Below, piece by piece: positions 3,104 through 55,690 of a stretch of DNA of 64,000 nucleotides. Every line of letters begins with the position of its first letter. The stretch's first letter is position 1. Both the position numbers and the translations under genes were made by a program. The notes under the pieces were generated by a model that did no database searches, had not been told where the DNA came from, and saw only the letters and a program-made list of their open reading frames with translations. The DNA lies in contig CP092081.1 of NCBI GenBank assembly GCA_022226935.1, positions 3,150,737 through 3,214,736 of the forward strand, written 5' to 3'. This DNA is from Nitrospira sp. (GTDB lineage Bacteria; Nitrospirota; Nitrospiria; Nitrospirales; Nitrospiraceae).

Positions 3104-3130
3104 GGCCTGTCCACGTGTTCCAGAGAGCTG

Positions 3131-3185
3131 TGTAGCAAGAGTGAGCAGGCGTCGGTAGACAATTCTCCCAGTCGTTTCGTAGGGT
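3131..3185 (+). promoter_or_regulatory. Repeated promoter element, copy 2
   Basis: TGTAGCA (3131), GTGAGCA (3141) and GTCGGTA (3151) lie in exact 10-bp register. They lead into TAGACA (3156-3161), an 18-bp spacer and TAGGGT (3180-3185). Layout is the same as copy 1, and the gene that follows is a paralog of the gene after copy 1. Confidence 0.7.
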
Positions 3186-3215: not shown

Positions 3216-3623
3216 GTGAAAGACGTCTGTCGGTTTATGCATGTGCCGGGGCATCAGGGGAGCAGATCGCGCCATGCAGTGCTGCTGGCGCTGTTCCTGA
3301 TCGGCATTCGCCTCGTCGCCGGATTCCTCCATGTCAGTTGCTTCAACGAAATCGAGCCACCGCCCGCGCGGTCGTTTCACCTCCATGCCGGCGGCGATAG
3401 AATCCCCTGTCATCACGGCAAGGCCCCGACAAGCCCGCTGAGTGATTGGGCCTGTTCAGTCAATCAGGATGAGTCTGCCTTTATCCTGCCCGATGTCCCG
3501 CTCTTGCCGGTGGTGGTGGCGCTGTTTCTTCCGTTTCTGCTTTTCAGGCTCTCGTTCGGGAGTCGTTCTGCGATTGTTCCTCACGGCCGCGGTCCACCCT
3601 ATCTCTTCCTTCTCGTCTCGTAA
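3216..3623 (+). CDS. Small Cys/His-rich two-TM membrane protein, paralog 2
   Basis: The 135-aa product has an N-terminal membrane segment (about residues 20-37), a periplasmic-type loop with SCF, FHLH, GGDR, PCHHG and WACSVNQD motifs, and a second hydrophobic segment before a terminal HGRGPP motif. It shares all invariant Cys/His positions with the products at 218 and 6394, apart from the first Cys of the CxxC pair, here replaced (HVSC). GTG 3216 is used; ATG 3237 is equally possible, and no strong ribosome binding site decides. It is followed by a structured leader and the receptor gene at 3850. Function is unknown; a metal- or thiol-handling partner of the receptor is inferred. Confidence 0.72.
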   Translation: MKDVCRFMHVPGHQGSRSRHAVLLALFLIGIRLVAGFLHVSCFNEIEPPPARSFHLHAGGDRIPCHHGKAPTSPLSDWACSVNQDESAFILPDVPLLPVVVALFLPFLLFRLSFGSRSAIVPHGRGPPYLFLLVS

Positions 3624-3832
3624 CGCAGGGTTCTCATCCATATCACCTAATCGGGAGTCGCACGGCCGCTACACCGAAGGCGGGCCGCACGCCAGGGAAC
3701 CGGCATCATCCGATGCCGGAAGGGACAGGTCTTTGAAGGACCAGCCCCGTACACCCTGCGTGCAGCCGCTCAGCCTTCGTCACCGGTCTGCCCCCGGCAA
3801 GTTCCGGTTCCGTGCGTGTAGAGCGGGAACCG
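3623..3832 (+). promoter_or_regulatory. Structured 5' leader before the amber-interrupted receptor
   Basis: Long-range arms 3623-3631 and 3753-3761 (perfect 9 bp) enclose a perfect 8-bp hairpin at 3700-3719. A further hairpin, 3805-3811 with 3826-3832, ends exactly where the AAGGAGGA ribosome binding site (3833-3840) begins. That placement suggests control of translation initiation. Parts resemble a cobalamin riboswitch loosely, but the conserved core was not found. Confidence 0.42.
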
Positions 3833-3849
3833 AAGGAGGAGTGTTGTCG

Positions 3850-6198
3850 ATGAAGTCAACGGACTCGTGTCAGAACGCATCTCGATCTCTCATATGTCTT
3901 CGCCGCGGCTCCGCGGGCATCGGCAGAATCGTCGCGGTCGCCGGCCTTACGTTGCTGACGGCCTGTATCGGTCCGCACAAACCGGTGGCGACGGACAAGA
4001 CTTCTGCCACTCCAGCTGCCGCACCGGTTCAGGGAGAATCGATCGGGGACTCCGGAGGAGACAAGGCGACGCAGGCAAGGCAGTCTCCGCCGGCTCTGCC
4101 CGTGCCGCTTCCCGTACCCGTTCAGGCCGAAGTCTTGGCCGGAACGGGAGCACCCACAAGGGACGATGCTCCCGTTGTTGATGTCAAACCGGTGCATATT
4201 GTGGCGCAAGCCGAGTCCTATCACGTGACAACCACGGCGACGGCGACCAAAACCGACACACCGATCATGGAGACGCCGATGTCGGTGAAAGTTGTCCCTC
4301 AACAGGTCATGCGCGATCAGCAGGTCGTGCGGGTCGATCAGGCGCTGAAAAACGTCAGCGGCGTCATCAGCGGCGCCGAGGGCGACATGCAGTTTAATGT
4401 GCGGGGGTTTGATCAGTTTAACTTCTATCGCGATGGCTACCCGTTTCAGAGCCAGTGGTTTCACGGAGAAGACCTGACGAATATCGAGCGGGTGGAGGTC
4501 TTGAAAGGCCCCGGCTCCATTCTCTATGGACGGGCCGAGCCCGGCGGCATCATCAATTTCGTCACGAAGCAACCGCTGGATCAGCCCTATTATTCGCTGC
4601 AGCAGTAGTTCGGCTCGTATGGCTGGTACCGGACCAACGCCGATCTGACCGGTCCGTTGACCGCAAACAACTCCGTATCCTACCGATTGAATATCGGCTA
4701 TCAAACGAACCAGACGTTCCAGCAGTTCGGGGGCAATGAACGGCTGATTGTGTCCCCGCAGGTGCGATGGCGAATCACGGATCACACCACCTCTACTCTG
4801 AAGTATGAGTACAGCGATATCTCGCTCACGGGCAAAGGCAATATTCCTCTGCTGGGCAACCGTCCGGCCCCCATTGCGCGGGAGTTGAATCTCGGCGAAC
4901 GCTGGAACCTGCAGAACGATAAGTATCATCTGGTCTCATTGATCACGGAGCATGCCTTCAACGACGCCTGGTCGATCAGGCATCGGTTCAATTTCAGCAA
5001 CCATCAATTGACGTTAACCGGACAGAATGTGGGGAATGCCGCGGCGAACGGGGATGTGAGTCGATTCTTCTTTGCGCAGAATACAGACGGTCGGGACTAC
5101 ACGCGCAATGTGTTCAATGCCCTCGAGCTCACCGGCCACGTCACCACCGGCCCGATCAAGCACAGGCTCCTGTTCGGGGGAGACTATCTCCACAGCGACA
5201 TTCGCGCGACGATGGCAGGGTTTACGCCGGCCACCGACGACGTGAGCAATATCTTCAACCCGGTTCACACGGCGGGACCGCCGGTCATCGCGCCTGGTGA
5301 TGTGACGAAATACACCCGGTCGCTGCCCTGGTTCGGTCTCTACGCGCAGGATCAAATCGAGTTGCCCTACCATATCCACATTCTCGCGGGATTCCGATAC
5401 GACAACGCGAAGACGTCCACCTCCAACGAGAATCTGGGCGTTCGCACGCCGACCATCAAGGATACGAATGAGCGGATTTCGCCACGAGCCGGCGTCGTAT
5501 GGCGTCCGGTGCCGGAGTTCTCGCTCTACGGCAGTTATACGGAAAACTTTGGCGCGTCGAATACGTTTACCGCCGGTTCGGTTGTGCCGCTGCCGCCGCA
5601 AACGGCTCAACAATGGGAGGTGGGGGCCAAGACGGAACTGTTCGGCGGCCGGTTTATCGGCTCATTGGCCTACTTCGACCTGACCAAGCAGAATTTGCCG
5701 GTCTTTTTTCCCGGGGAAACCAGGGCGGTCGGCGAGGGTGAGAGCCGTGGTGTAGAGTTGGACGTCAGCGGGGAAATTCTGCCGGGCTGGAGCGTTATCG
5801 GGGCCTATGCCTACACGCCCTTTGCCAAGACCACAAAGGATGATCCCGCGCTTGGGACGATGGGGAAGCGCCTCAACAACGCGCCCGTCAATAGCGGCAG
5901 TCTATGGACCGTCTATCAGTTCCAGGAGGAAACGCTCCAAGGATTGCGGGTGGGAGTCGGGGTACAGGGGGTGGGTGAGCGGCAGATCGGGTTCGGCGAA
6001 ACGGCCCAGGCGCCGGGATATGTGATCACCAACCTGATGGCGAGTTATCACTGGCGTGTCGGCACGGCCCGGTACACGGCACAGCTGAACGTCGATAACC
6101 TGCTCGACAAAAGCTATATCGGTCAGGTCTTCTCGTATGGTCCGACCTACTACGGTATGCCGCGTTTCTTCATGGGGTCGATCCGGATGGAGTTCTAG
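3850..6198 (+). pseudogene. TonB-dependent siderophore receptor interrupted by in-frame TAG
   Basis: Reading from ATG 3850 (ribosome binding site AAGGAGGA at 3833-3840), the frame encodes a signal or lipobox-like N-terminus (LLTAC), a Pro/Ala-rich linker, a siderophore-receptor plug (METPMSVKVVPQQVM, RVEVLKGPGSILYGRAEPGG) and a full beta-barrel ending in RMEF. Codon 253 (4606-4608) is TAG. The paralog at 13333 has GAA (Glu) at the equivalent site, so one base change from GAG explains the stop. No frameshift is present and the downstream frame is intact for about 530 codons. This may be a recent nonsense mutation, a phase-variable or suppressed stop, or a sequencing error. If the stop is real, no barrel would be made. 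Confidence 0.85.
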
Positions 6199-12793: not shown

Positions 12794-12822
12794 GTGTTGC
12801 GCAGGCAGATTTCTGCACGATC

Positions 12823-12876
12823 TGTAGCATCGGTGAGCACCCATCCGTAGGCAGTCCGCCGAGCGTCTGGTATAAG
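12823..12876 (+). promoter_or_regulatory. Repeated promoter element, copy 4
   Basis: TGTAGCA (12823) and GTGAGCA (12833) are in 10-bp register, with a degenerate third unit at 12843. TAGGCA (12848-12853) and TATAAG (12871-12876) are 17 bp apart. It starts the unit with the small protein at 12897 and the receptor at 13333. Confidence 0.7.
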
Positions 12877-17031: not shown

Positions 17032-17054
17032 TGAGTGAACGAAACGAATAATTG

Positions 17055-17108
17055 TGTAGCATCCGTGAGCATCCGTCGGTAGACAAGTTTCTTCGAAGGG
17101 CGTAGATG
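17055..17108 (+). promoter_or_regulatory. Repeated promoter element, copy 5
   Basis: TGTAGCA (17055), GTGAGCA (17065) and GTCGGTA (17075) lie in exact 10-bp register. TAGACA (17080-17085) is followed after 17 bp by TAGATG (17103-17108). It precedes the His-rich secreted protein at 17134. Confidence 0.7.
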
Positions 17109-17133: not shown

Positions 17134-17466
17134 ATGAATCGATTGTCCATTAAAACCTCCGCCGCCGTCGTGACCCTCGGGGTCGCTGTGCTGTATCTGG
17201 CGTTGGCGCTCGTCGCTCCGGGTTGTTCCTTTGCCCATGCGACCCCGTCCGGAGATCACCACCAGCATTCCGGGACAGACTCTCATTCCACGCTCTGTTC
17301 ATGGGCCTGTCAGGCCACGTCCGATGTCGGGCCAGTTGCACACGCGGCCGGCGGCATGGTCTGGGCCGTCCAACTTCATCAGCTTCCTTCTGCTCCTCTA
17401 CTCATCGACGTTCAACGTCACGCTTCTCTGCACACCCGTGCGCCGCCGGTCTCCGTGAGGGGATAG
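17134..17466 (+). CDS. Small His-rich membrane/secreted protein
   Basis: The 110-aa protein has an N-terminal hydrophobic segment (about residues 9-29) followed by a metal-ligand-rich stretch (GCSFAH, GDHHQH, TDSHS, LCSWACQ). The tail ends in a RAPP motif like the product at 12897. The CSWAC segment recalls the WAC motif of paralogs 1-3. ATG 17134 fits the -10 of promoter copy 5 (17103-17108); the longer ATG would lie within the promoter. It is the last gene of the metal island and has no receptor directly downstream. Periplasmic metal binding is inferred. Confidence 0.65.
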   Translation: MNRLSIKTSAAVVTLGVAVLYLALALVAPGCSFAHATPSGDHHQHSGTDSHSTLCSWACQATSDVGPVAHAAGGMVWAVQLHQLPSAPLLIDVQRHASLHTRAPPVSVRG

Positions 17467-17520
17467 TTCGGGCGGGGCGCGCGTCGCCTTTCTTCACAGC
17501 AGGATTGAGGGTCGGGCTGT

Positions 17521-17536
17521 TCAGGTTCAAACCTGA
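17521..17536. promoter_or_regulatory. 16-bp palindrome in a 356-bp non-coding gap
   Basis: TCAGGTTCAAACCTGA has perfect 7-bp arms and a 2-base centre, the size of a dimeric repressor site. It lies in the gap 17467-17822, which shows no convincing gene. It may be an operator for the HTH gene at 17823 or chance. Confidence 0.35.
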
Positions 17537-17822
17537 AATGGCATCGCCTCTGCACTGTGAGCCGCCACAATCGGGCGTTCGGCCTGAGCTATTCACTCGA
17601 AGTGTCTGCGTCCGGGGGTGAATTGCCCTCTCCCTCGGCTGACCGGCGGCGCAGGTGCTTCCCTGTGACCTCCGCTGCCGGTTCCCAAAGTGTTGTTGTG
17701 ACAGATGTAGGGGCTACGCATGGTGGACCCGGCTGTTCGGGAGGCTCGTCCCCCTCGCGCAGTCGGGGAGGGGCGGTGTCGAAGCCGCTCCTTTCCACCG
17801 CCAGGTCTGAAGGAGTGAGGGG

Positions 17823-18068
17823 ATGGATCAACCGCTGTTGCGAGTCAAAGAAGCCGCGCAACTCCTTCAAGTGAGCAAGTGGACGATCTATCGCTGGATC
17901 GATGAAGGGCGACTGGAGGCGACGAAGATCGGAGGGGGCAGTCTCCGTATTTTCCGTCGTTCCGTGGCGGCTCTGGTCGAGAGCAATCGAACCGATTCCC
18001 GTCCCGCTGACTTCGCGCCGCACTTGAAAATGGTGCCGCTGAGCGGGCGCCGGGCGACCAAGCGATAA
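17823..18068 (+). CDS. Excisionase-family (helix-turn-helix 17) DNA-binding protein
   Basis: The 81-aa protein has the MerR-like/excisionase HTH pattern: LRVKEAAQLLQVSKWTIYRWIDEGRLEATKIGGGSLRIFRRSVAALVE at residues 6-53. The wing-forming GGG-x-LRIF matches the HTH_17 family. The C-terminal 28 residues are basic and unstructured. Such proteins act as phage/plasmid excision factors or as small transcription regulators. No integrase or att site is seen here, so a regulatory role is more likely. AAGGAG precedes the ATG by about 10 bases. Confidence 0.8.
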   Translation: MDQPLLRVKEAAQLLQVSKWTIYRWIDEGRLEATKIGGGSLRIFRRSVAALVESNRTDSRPADFAPHLKMVPLSGRRATKR

Positions 18069-18079
18069 ACGCGTCAAGA

Positions 18080-18163
18080 CGGATCCTGAGGTTGTGCACC
18101 CTTCTTCAGGATCTGCCTCCCCGGGGTGAGTGGGACGGCCTCCCCCTCCACCCCGGCCCCTCG
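18080..18163 (+). repeat. 84-bp two-hairpin element, copy A
   Basis: Differs from copy B (18902-18985) at 4 of 84 positions; the first 49 bases are identical. Two perfect 8-bp hairpins are present: 18082-18089 with 18106-18113 (the loop contains GTGCAC), and 18121-18128 with 18149-18156. It lies upstream of the P460 gene. Arms are preserved between copies, which suggests a structured RNA or protein site. Confidence 0.75.
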
Positions 18164-18222
18164 GGGGCGGATTGCGAGATGTGCATGGAGTGCCAGGCAT
18201 GATGCAGAGAGGAGAAGTGCCC

Positions 18223-18768
18223 ATGGTCAAGATGATCTGCGCGATGGCGGTGTTGGTGAGCCTGAGTTGGGTTGGTGGTCTGGCAGGAGCGGTGGTTCAC
18301 GCTGCCTCTCCAAAGGACGGCGAGGTGGCGCTGCCGGCCGACTACGCCAATTGGCCGAAATTTTTGAGCGGGGTACAACGGGAAGATACGAAGCAGGTGC
18401 GGGAGTTGTATGTGAATCCGGGCGTCGCCAAGGCCTGCCCGGCGGGGGCGTTTCCTCACGGCACCAGGCTGGTGATGGAACTGTATAAGGCGAAGACTGA
18501 GGGCGAGACGGTAGTAAAGGGCACGGATGGGAAGTTGATCAAGGGCGATCTGGCGAAAATCTTTGTCATGGAAAAAAACGAGGGGTGGGGGCAGGACGTG
18601 CCGGATAATTTGAAGAACGGTAGCTGGGTGTTTGGCGCCTATGGCCCTGATGGCAAAGCGCTGGCCGAAGACTTCACGAAGTGCCGGGCCTGCCACGCGC
18701 CGTTGGCGCAGAAAGATTTCGTGCATCGGATGGATGAGTTCTGCGCCCTCAGCCAGAAGGTGCACTAG
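18223..18768 (+). CDS. Cytochrome P460 family protein
   Basis: The 181-aa protein has a signal peptide (about residues 1-27) and a mature domain with the P460 layout: YANWPKF, FPHGTRLVMELYK, KIFVMEKNEG, NGSWVFGAYGPDGK, and a C-terminal heme-c site CRACH with APLAQKDFVH after it. P460 proteins carry a c-type heme often cross-linked to a Lys and oxidise hydroxylamine or handle nitric oxide; activity here is not proven. AGAGGAG at 18208-18214 supports ATG 18223. A degenerate paralog lies at 20253. The upstream leader carries the duplicated hairpin element. Confidence 0.85.
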   Translation: MVKMICAMAVLVSLSWVGGLAGAVVHAASPKDGEVALPADYANWPKFLSGVQREDTKQVRELYVNPGVAKACPAGAFPHGTRLVMELYKAKTEGETVVKGTDGKLIKGDLAKIFVMEKNEGWGQDVPDNLKNGSWVFGAYGPDGKALAEDFTKCRACHAPLAQKDFVHRMDEFCALSQKVH

Positions 18769-18901
18769 CCGGCGGCATCGACGATGCGGGATGCGAACGA
18801 TGGGGCCTGTGTGCGGGTCTTGACCTACCTCCTCGCAGGACGCCCAAGGGGGGCGGTGGTTGGCCGCCTCCCATTTTTGCCCCGCTGTGCATCGGTTTTC
18901 T

Positions 18902-18985
18902 CGGATCCTGAGGTTGTGCACCCTTCTTCAGGATCTGCCTCCCCGGGGTGAATGGGATGGCCTCCCCCTTCACCCCGGCCCTTCG
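18902..18985 (+). repeat. 84-bp two-hairpin element, copy B
   Basis: Near-identical to copy A at 18080. Arms 18904-18911 with 18928-18935, and 18943-18950 with 18971-18978, are perfect, with all four substitutions outside the paired arms. It lies 88 bp upstream of the TPR gene start. Confidence 0.75.
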
Positions 18986-19072
18986 AGGCATCGGCGGTTT
19001 GGAGGTGCCGAGCTGAAGCGGACGAGCAGAATGGACAAGAATCGATCGAGGGTCCTGAGGAGAGGTGATCGG

Positions 19073-20221
19073 ATGACGCAGCGGTGGTGTCGAATGGGGT
19101 TCGTCAGCCTGCTCGCGCTGGTGGTGGTGTGCAACGGCGTGACCGGGACGGGCGCCATGGAGGTGGATGGCTGGACGCAGCGCTTCGAGGAGGGCGTGAA
19201 GGCCCGGGAAGCGGCGCGGTACGCGAAGGCTGAACCGATTCTGATGCAGGTCTTGCGGGAAGCCGAACAGGGTGGCGCCGATGACGCGCGAGTGGCGCTG
19301 GCCGCGAACCAGCTGGGATTGTTGTATCACGACCAGGGCAGGCTCTCAGAAGCCGAAGCACTCTATCTGCGCGCGCTCGGCACGTGGGAGGCTCAACTGG
19401 GGCCGGAGCACGAAGACGTCGCCGCCGCATTGAACAATCTGGCGGAAATCGCCCATGCCAAAGGCGATTGGCGTGCGGCGGAACCATTGTATGAGCGAGT
19501 GCTGAAGATCGAACGCCAGACGCTGGGCCCGGCGCATCCCGATGTCGCGATCAGCTTGAACAATCTGGCCGAGCTCTACCGCAAGCAGGGACGAGAGACG
19601 GCTGCCGAATCGACGTACCGATTGGCGCTCACGCTGATGGAGCAGGCGCATGGCCCCGATCATGTTGAGCTGGGGCCGGTGCTCAATAACCTGGCTGCGT
19701 TATACAAGGGCCGTGGGATGTATGCCTGGGCCGAACCGTTGTACGAACGGGCCTTGAAGGTCCGTCGGCTTCACTTCGGCAACGACCATCCGGCTGTGGT
19801 GATGAGTTTGAACAACCTGGCCTGCCTGTACCAAGCCGAGGGGCTGTATGCCTCGGCGCAACGCCATTTCGACGAAGCCTTGACGCTCGCCGAGCGGCTC
19901 TCCGGCCCTCAGAGCGCTCTGGCCGGCACGATTATAGGCAACATGGCGTTCCTGGCCGATCAACAGGGACTGATGGCTCAGGCGCAACTGTGGTATCAGC
20001 GCGCGCTGGTGATTCAGCAACAGCAACTCGGGGTGCACCACCCCACGGTTGGACTCCTGGTGGAACGATATGCCGTGGTACTCGACAGCATCGGCCAATC
20101 GGTGGAGGCCGGACTATATGCGGCGCGCGCCGCATCGATTCGCGCACGGTCTCAGCCCGGAGCGGTGAAGCAGGGCGCGGTCTCTTACCTTGGCGCGACG
20201 GTTGGAGAAGCCAGTCGATAA
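19073..20221 (+). CDS. Secreted tetratricopeptide (TPR) repeat protein
   Basis: The 382-aa protein has a signal peptide (about residues 1-28) and at least six 42-residue TPR units of the kinesin-light-chain/TPR_10-12 type. These are recognised by repeated LNNLA, LY...G, A-x-P-LYERAL and HP-x-V motifs. TPR arrays are protein-binding scaffolds; the partner is unknown. GAGGAGAGG at 19057-19065 supports ATG 19073; ATG 19031 is a weaker alternative. It sits between the P460 gene and its degenerate paralog. Confidence 0.85.
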   Translation: MTQRWCRMGFVSLLALVVVCNGVTGTGAMEVDGWTQRFEEGVKAREAARYAKAEPILMQVLREAEQGGADDARVALAANQLGLLYHDQGRLSEAEALYLRALGTWEAQLGPEHEDVAAALNNLAEIAHAKGDWRAAEPLYERVLKIERQTLGPAHPDVAISLNNLAELYRKQGRETAAESTYRLALTLMEQAHGPDHVELGPVLNNLAALYKGRGMYAWAEPLYERALKVRRLHFGNDHPAVVMSLNNLACLYQAEGLYASAQRHFDEALTLAERLSGPQSALAGTIIGNMAFLADQQGLMAQAQLWYQRALVIQQQQLGVHHPTVGLLVERYAVVLDSIGQSVEAGLYAARAASIRARSQPGAVKQGAVSYLGATVGEASR

Positions 20222-20252
20222 CCTGTGCCCCGATCAGAAAGGAAGGTGGTCC

Positions 20253-20777
20253 ATGCCGGTCAGTGACGCGGTGGCATCTCCTCAACGAACGACGGTCGCC
20301 GGGAAGCCGTACGACCAGACAGGATTGAATGTAGCGGTGGTGCGCTTGTTGGCGCTGGCGTTGGACATCAGCGGAGGGTGGTCGCCGGCTCCGCCCGCAG
20401 CCGGATTGATGATCCCGTTCGGCTATCGAGACTGGCCCCATCTTACGTCGCTTGTGCAGTCGTCTGGCGGGGCGCAAGAGCTCAGGTTTTACGTGTGCCC
20501 GAATGCGCTCCTCACGGCGGATGATCGATCATTTCCCGTGGGGACGGTGTTCGTGGTGGAATCCGAACCCTGTCCGGTAGGAATCGGCGCGCAGGAATCT
20601 CGTCCAGCGGTGTTTGTCATGGAAAAATGCGCGGGGATGACCCGGGATGAGGACGGGCCCGCACAGTCCGAATTGTGGATCTATGCGAGCTGGGATTCCG
20701 GCGGCCACGTGGCGACGGCGGATCCGGAACGATGTGGAATCTGCCGCTTGCCGTGGCTCACGCCGGGTCGCAATTGA
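20253..20777 (+). CDS. Degenerate cytochrome P460-like protein lacking the heme His
   Basis: The 174-aa product aligns by eye with the P460 protein at 18223: YRDWPHL, ELRFYV, FPVGTVFVVES, RPAVFVMEKC, SELWIYASWDSGG. The heme site is CGICR, with Arg in place of the axial His of CxxCH, so normal c-type heme attachment is not expected. No clear signal peptide is seen. AAAGGAAGG (20238-20246) supports ATG 20253. It may be a non-catalytic P460 relative or a decaying copy; the frame is intact, arguing for retained function. Confidence 0.65.
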   Translation: MPVSDAVASPQRTTVAGKPYDQTGLNVAVVRLLALALDISGGWSPAPPAAGLMIPFGYRDWPHLTSLVQSSGGAQELRFYVCPNALLTADDRSFPVGTVFVVESEPCPVGIGAQESRPAVFVMEKCAGMTRDEDGPAQSELWIYASWDSGGHVATADPERCGICRLPWLTPGRN

Positions 20778-20915: not shown

Positions 20916-20941
20916 GTCCGCAAATGTTGTAGAATGCGGAC
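20916..20941. promoter_or_regulatory. Inverted repeat upstream of SmbP-like gene
   Basis: GTCCGCA (20916-20922) and TGCGGAC (20935-20941) flank a 12-bp spacer containing TAGAAT, a possible -10. It could be an operator for a metal regulator; not matched to a known box. Confidence 0.35.
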
Positions 20942-20981
20942 AAGTAGATCAGCTGCTCACCATTACACAGGAGGAATGCGT

Positions 20982-21284
20982 ATGACAGGATTACGTGCAG
21001 GAGTGGTGGTTGCTTCGTTGTGTGCCCTTGTGGCGGTTGCGCCGGCGAACGTGGCGCTGGCCGACGGCGGCGGACATGTGAAGGAAGTGATCAAACACGC
21101 CAAGGAAGGCGTGGAGCATGAGAAGGAAGCGATTAAGCATCTGGAGGAAGCGGTCAAGGGGAGTAACGATCCGCATGCGAAAGAGGCGTTAGAGCATGCC
21201 AAAGAGGCCGTCAAGCATGCTGAGGAATCCTTGGCCCATGCCGAACAGGCATCGAGCAAAAAAGGCAAAGGGAAGAGCAAGTAA
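20982..21284 (+). CDS. SmbP-like small periplasmic metal-binding protein
   Basis: The 100-aa product has a signal peptide (about residues 1-27, ending NVALA) and a mature helix built of repeated HAKE/EHEKEAIKHLEEAVK heptads with about ten His, then a Lys-rich tail. This is the pattern of SmbP from ammonia oxidisers, which binds copper and other divalent metals in the periplasm. ATG 20982 is 7 bases after AGGAGG (20969-20974); ATG 20976 is too close. It lies in a metal-rich neighbourhood next to promoter copy 6. Confidence 0.8.
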   Translation: MTGLRAGVVVASLCALVAVAPANVALADGGGHVKEVIKHAKEGVEHEKEAIKHLEEAVKGSNDPHAKEALEHAKEAVKHAEESLAHAEQASSKKGKGKSK

Positions 21285-55353: not shown

Positions 55354-55690
55354 GATGAAAGAGGTCGCCAGCGGCGTTCTCGGTCGCAAGCTCCCCTGCG
55401 ACGTACCCAGAGGGTACGCCTCAGTCGTCAAGCTTCCTGCGGCCTTGCTGGACGACCTCTTTGATCGGCCTGCTTGTCTGAGTGATGAAAGAGGTCGCCG
55501 GCATCGTTCTCTGTCGCCTGCCTCCCTGCGGCATACCGAGAGGGTACGCCTCAGTCGGCATGCTCCTTGCGGCCTTGCCGGACGACCTCTTTGATCGGCC
55601 CGGTTATTGGCGTGATGAAAGAGGCCGCGAGCGGCGTTCTCGGTCGCACGACTCCCGGCGACGTACCGACAGGCTCCTGTCCCCGGCGAA
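55354..55690. repeat. Tandem 129-130-bp GTAC-centre hairpin repeats (2.6 units)
   Basis: Units start at 55354, 55483 and 55614; the third is truncated near 55690. Units 1 and 2 begin GATGAAAGAGGTCG and end CGACCTCTTTGATC, forming a long hairpin with a GTACC/GGGTAC centre (AGAGGGTACGCCTCAGTCG shared). This fills the whole gap 55349-55707. Confidence 0.78.

Follow-up and report, generated by a model that had tools for sequence, protein, structure and literature searches.

A structured RNA element of about 85 nt, made up of three consecutive hairpins, is present in two copies within one heme/metal-protein operon of Nitrospira, where it lies between co-directional cistrons. We consider it nearly certain that this element is a genuine structured RNA. 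It constitutes an RNA family without an entry in Rfam that was previously uncatalogued and is restricted to one family of bacteria. On current evidence it is probably a lineage-specific cis-acting intercistronic RNA module of this Nitrospiraceae operon; from sequence we infer both its transcription within the polycistronic operon and any regulatory effect. Nitrospira are key nitrite oxidisers, and there is strong support for this RNA family, which is associated with genes for small metal-binding proteins and for heme proteins of the P460 fold. The features of the locus within the stretch of DNA analysed (64 kb, hereafter the window) are given below, with scores for the two copies from R2, the wider of the two covariance models that were used.

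17134-17466, + strand: His/Cys-rich exported small protein, the usual upstream gene of the locus
17608-17688, + strand: divergent type B module with the same two-hairpin architecture, located before the HTH gene; fold z-score -3.6
17823-18068, + strand: 81-aa HTH_17/excisionase-like DNA-binding protein; stop codon 11 bases before copy 1
18080-18166, + strand: element copy 1 (type A); P1 18080-18115, linker 18116-18120, P2 18121-18156, P3 18157-18166; R2 88.3 bits
18223-18768, + strand: exported cytochrome P460-family protein (PF16694), gained or lost with one element copy
18806-18878, + strand: hairpin pair between the P460 gene and copy 2; its last hairpin is terminator-like and has a T run (18848-18872)
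18902-18988, + strand: element copy 2 (type A); P1 18902-18937, P2 18943-18978, P3 18979-18988; R2 90.8 bits
19073-20221, + strand: exported TPR protein, downstream of copy 2
20253-20777, + strand: P460-like protein with a weak PF16694 match, often directly after the element in other genera
20934-21284, + strand: SmbP-like small metal-binding protein (PF16785), often directly after the element in other genera

Copy 1 sits between the small HTH gene (stop at 18068) and the cytochrome P460-family gene, and copy 2 between the P460 and TPR genes, the distance from the end of the element to the start codon being 56 bases for P460 (ATG 18223) and 84 for TPR (ATG 19073). The first-pass annotation had described 84-bp copies at 18080 and 18902 with 80 shared bases. 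This is borne out (80/84 over the first 84 bases), and the match extends to 87 bases, of which 82 (94%) are equal in register. The whole-genome search that it had proposed recovers the second copy with an E-value of ~1e-33, far above chance, and no third copy exists in the 64-kb window or in the complete 4.23 Mb Nitrospira chromosome. A scattered mobile repeat, the reading that had been named as fatal to an RNA role, is therefore not what is seen: two copies in 4.23 Mb, one or two per genome, in homologous loci across the genus and at a fixed locus with constant orientation do not fit a REP/BIME or MITE repeat. Concerted evolution of the two copies was also considered and left no sign, the differences within genomes (mean 5.2) equalling those between genomes (4.9-5.4).

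On the + strand each copy is predicted to fold into P1 (12 bp), P2 (10 + 4 bp, 14 bp in all) and a short C(UUCG)G hairpin, P3, with fold energy z-scores of -2.5 and -4.6; P3 is predicted to be weaker in copy 2. The stems are longer than the 8 bp given in the first-pass annotation, and the third hairpin is an addition to it. The P1 loop reads GUUGYGCACYCUUC, the apical part of P2 reads GGNGGUGGCCUCCC and P3 is capped by CCC-UUCG-GGG. Within the first 84 bases the copies differ at element positions 51, 57, 69 and 81, and the earlier statement that all changes lie outside the stems holds for the 8-bp cores but not for the extended P2 stem, in which two of them fall. These two changes convert pair 51-68 from G-U to A-U and pair 50-69 from A.C to A-U, so pairing is kept or improved.

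Covariation across homologues, another analysis proposed at the outset, supports the fold. In an alignment of 56 distinct homologues, which was fitted to the named structure and whose covariation figures lean towards it, two-sided compensatory changes occur at 23/29 base pairs, 95.2% of cells are paired and the covariation score is 0.452; the shuffled control (80.6% paired, 13 pairs, score 0.18) and the slid-partner control (31-65% paired, score at most 0.11) lie far lower. An unfitted MAFFT alignment of the genus copies points in the same direction with less variation, and corrected mutual information recovers P1 and P2. The latter analysis shows nothing convincing beyond the nested stems that would indicate a pseudoknot or kissing loops. 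Pairs 2-39, 11-31 and 12-30 are mostly G-U on the + strand and would become A.C mismatches on the opposite one, and the functional strand is therefore that of the genes. A protein-coding reading is ruled out by the one-base length differences between copies together with the base-pair covariation.

Within the genus Nitrospira, a nucleotide search finds a match in 26/29 genomes, that of G021 reaching only E 0.007 and being missed by the covariance models, which detect one or two copies in 25/29 genomes and none in G009, G015, G016 and G021. The covariance model R1, built from an alignment (A1) of 25 distinct genus copies, gives full-length matches in 66/147 genomes and 10/22 genera of the family. 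With R2, matches occur in 78/236 genomes of the order and 64/396 of the phylum, every one of them in the same family; among the 396 phylum genomes no covariance-model match falls outside it. An exact-pattern scan of 84,980 species returned 32 stretches, and nearly all of these records, among them Candidatus Nitrospira defluvii, are named Nitrospira (one is named Nitrospiraceae and one Nitrosospira). When the locus is aligned for 20 genus genomes, the element has a mean pairwise identity of 0.92-0.98, compared with ~0.6-0.8 in the HTH gene, 0.54-0.77 over the greater part of the upstream gene and 0.36 immediately behind the element. Identity this far above that of the flanking genes in a non-coding stretch shows strong purifying selection. 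Loop and linker sequences, and not the stems alone, hardly vary within the genus and in much of the family.

The genes around the element are as constant in orientation as the element itself. Among 85 copies with distinct flanks, in which closely related genomes are each counted separately, 328 neighbouring locus genes lie on the same strand and 0 on the opposite one. The upstream neighbour is the HTH gene in 50/85 copies, a tie that is hence common, not obligatory, and the association cannot be reduced to this gene alone. Downstream, the neighbour is a TPR gene in 26 copies, an SmbP-like gene in 19, a P460-like gene in 16 and P460 in 12. Loci in other genera are of a similar type, the element standing beside TPR, P460, P460-like, SmbP-like or HMA-like genes. 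Pfam backs the names HTH_17, Cytochrome_P460, TPR and SMBP. The C-terminus of the P460-like protein (20253-20777) carries CGIC instead of the CXXCH heme motif, and this protein may therefore have the P460 fold but no heme. Covariation, strand-specific G-U pairs and the constant orientation and locus together lend strong support to the initial suggestion of an RNA leader-type element in a transcribed context.

As far as the 3-kb loci reach, all two-copy genus loci except that of G004 share the order His/Cys-rich small protein, ~370 nt, HTH gene, element, P460, element and TPR. The 12 one-copy genus genomes mostly show HTH-element-TPR, the loci of G010 and G020 being different and the TPR gene of G020 broken. 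P460 was searched for in the one-copy genus genomes and is absent; all that the incomplete genome G002 has is a 32% match, containing a stop, downstream of its element. P460 thus comes and goes with the second copy as a presence/absence unit; in G004 (L033) the two copies are separated only by a non-coding remnant. The co-regulation of P460 and TPR put forward in the first-pass annotation proves too narrow a proposal, because most one-copy genus genomes keep the element before TPR without P460 and because, family-wide, it precedes SmbP-like, P460-like and other genes, mostly after an HTH gene. SmbP is a copper-binding protein. The neighbourhood, with its SmbP-like, His/Cys-rich and TonB/PepSY genes, points to metals at least as much as to hydroxylamine/NO. 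Proteins of the P460 fold are known to oxidise hydroxylamine and to bind NO. A c'-beta-type member from Nitrospira has been studied (PMC11928373).

In our preferred reading, that of a cis-acting intercistronic module, each copy would act on its own as a post-transcriptional module that controls or processes the gene that follows. A protein, or another RNA, would recognise the conserved loops and thereby determine how stable the downstream cistron is, how it is processed or how well it is translated relative to the HTH regulator in front. A self-contained module is favoured over a switch with its own expression platform because sequence conservation drops abruptly where P3 ends and the distance to the start codon is variable. 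The element might also act as a 3'-UTR of the HTH gene, since it is often closer to the end of this gene (8-20 nt) than to the next start codon. As a kind, a cis-acting structured RNA in an operon has precedent; what is unusual is that it recurs ahead of several cistrons within one operon. A bolder version of this reading, which we put forward only tentatively, is that the module, with its two sub-types, stands before several cistrons so that a single signal or RNA-binding protein may tune each of them separately, and that new cistrons such as P460 may have been recruited with their own copy, which would amount to a new lineage-specific regulatory RNA class. The system lends itself to testing, with a single locus, natural one- and two-copy species (the cultured Candidatus Nitrospira defluvii is one of the latter) and clear loop motifs.

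Intercistronic stem-loops that process or stabilise polycistronic transcripts are a known kind of element, and the present one resembles them in having stable hairpins between probably co-transcribed genes. A plain mRNA-stability or RNase-processing hairpin block without a specific partner would account for the very stable hairpins between cistrons and for the reuse of two-hairpin blocks in the same operon. We nevertheless regard it as rather unlikely, as near invariance of the loops and linker goes beyond what simple stability needs, and the nearly invariant loops and repetition before several genes also set the element apart from known stem-loops of this kind.

It is unlikely that the element is a riboswitch or attenuator in which P2 acts as a terminator-like or sequestering hairpin and P1 senses a ligand (metal, NO or heme). 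In favour of this, a run of T4 or more follows P2 in 12/29 divergent copies against 2/88 main copies, and a T run after P2 is found in the divergent sub-group and in type B. From the sequence, P3 could in principle also compete with the 3' arm of P2. In the main type, including both window copies, only two T follow P2 and the element ends in the UUCG hairpin; the longest T run averages 1.95 over the 88 main copies, and the combination of a GC-rich hairpin and a T run that marks an intrinsic terminator is absent from the main type and present in some divergent copies only. No conserved expression platform follows P3, and pseudoknot or loop-loop covariation was looked for without success. Base pairing between the P1 loop and the ribosome-binding site that follows is likewise not supported: the loop energies for the P460 and TPR leaders, -10.6 and -11.7, are not clearly better than those of shuffled loops (-12.7 and -10.2), and such pairing is no stronger behind the element than at other genes of the locus (P460-like -11.8). 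An attenuator origin of the element is possible, as some divergent members carry a terminator T run. In low-scoring copies of genus g6 (L133-L136, L138-L140 and L142) a T run after P2 replaces P3, and the P2 of this sub-group, which stands before HMA-like and SmbP-like genes, resembles an intrinsic terminator.

The type B block at 17608-17688 has no significant R2 score in the window and was recognised by its conservation and its relatives in other genera. Its second hairpin shows two-sided changes in most pairs, in a mixed alignment in which the first hairpin is poorly aligned. At loci that already have a main copy, R2 also yields additional weak full-length matches, every one of them on the strand of that copy and many in the gap that precedes the HMA-like gene; they keep the two-hairpin plan with different loops (GGCGGCCUCCUU in the first). 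Several conserved, well-folding blocks lie between the His/Cys-rich and HTH genes (17436-17810), among them another conserved hairpin block at 17718-17802 and a predicted hairpin, likewise conserved, that extends over the stop codon of the 17134-17466 gene. The hairpin pair at 18806-18878 is conserved too and is still present in G004 between the two elements without P460.

Comparison with catalogued RNAs bears on a further alternative, a small RNA processed from the operon transcript and acting in trans, the C-rich loops of which (CACCCUUCUUC, GGCCUCC) would pair with the ribosome-binding sites of other messages, extra copies raising its dose. Neither the window region nor eight diverse homologous loci gave a gathering-level match to Rfam 15, and none of the weak E-value matches in the window region overlaps the two copies. 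The only faint match of similar flavour, far below the cut-off, is CcsR1, of the CCUCCUCCC-motif family, at 18815-18888. The element shares CCUCC in exposed loops of GC-rich hairpins with the CcsR-type small RNAs (RF02791), but it has no homology to them at gathering score and is not a stand-alone gene. A trans-acting RNA would be in keeping with the very stable fold and with pyrimidine-rich loops that hardly vary. We judge this reading distinctly unlikely, since the element is always locked between similar genes and is not seen as an orphan gene, no promoter-like site was found in 17400-20400 and, within the genus, the second copy tracks the presence of the second gene. The element also resembles the orphan candidate structured cis-regulatory RNAs of intergenic surveys (such as PMC2864571, PMC8632094 and PMC11109978), which were likewise found by covariation, are intergenic and adjoin a consistent gene set; in contrast to them, the present element belongs to one family only, is duplicated inside a single operon and is intercistronic. 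The word Nitrospira does not appear in the main text of these three surveys, and no RNA-level regulation in Nitrospira is described in the literature searched.

A recombination or mobility site (an integron-like or excisionase-associated hairpin) that moves a P460 cassette with the help of the excisionase-like HTH protein is highly improbable: P460 does lie between direct copies and comes and goes with one of them, and the HTH protein matches the excisionase domain model TIGR01764, but the locus is constant in genus genomes, the viral contigs and plasmids searched contain no match, there are only 2 copies per genome, the G-U pairing is specific to the RNA strand, no attC core GTTRRRY/RYYYAAC is present (GTTGTGC misfits and the copies contain no AAC) and ordinary homologous recombination between direct repeats would account for the presence/absence pattern.

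A few further features of the window deserve mention. A second repeat, GTAGCANNNGTGAGCANNCGTCGGTAGAC, occurs at 132-170, 3129-3167, 12821-12859 and 17053-17091, all on the + strand. With up to 3 mismatches allowed, the whole genome contains only these four, all inside the window; they precede three TonB-receptor genes and the His/Cys-rich gene at 17134. The repeat looks like an operator or promoter common to these operons, and its direct repeats might suit a BldC/excisionase-like HTH protein. The plug and barrel domains of one TonB receptor are encoded in two separate ORFs (3442-4608 and 4657-6198), which suggests that this receptor is frameshifted or split. Finally, a tandem repeat at 55354-55673 consists of 130-bp units that are ~82-85% identical.
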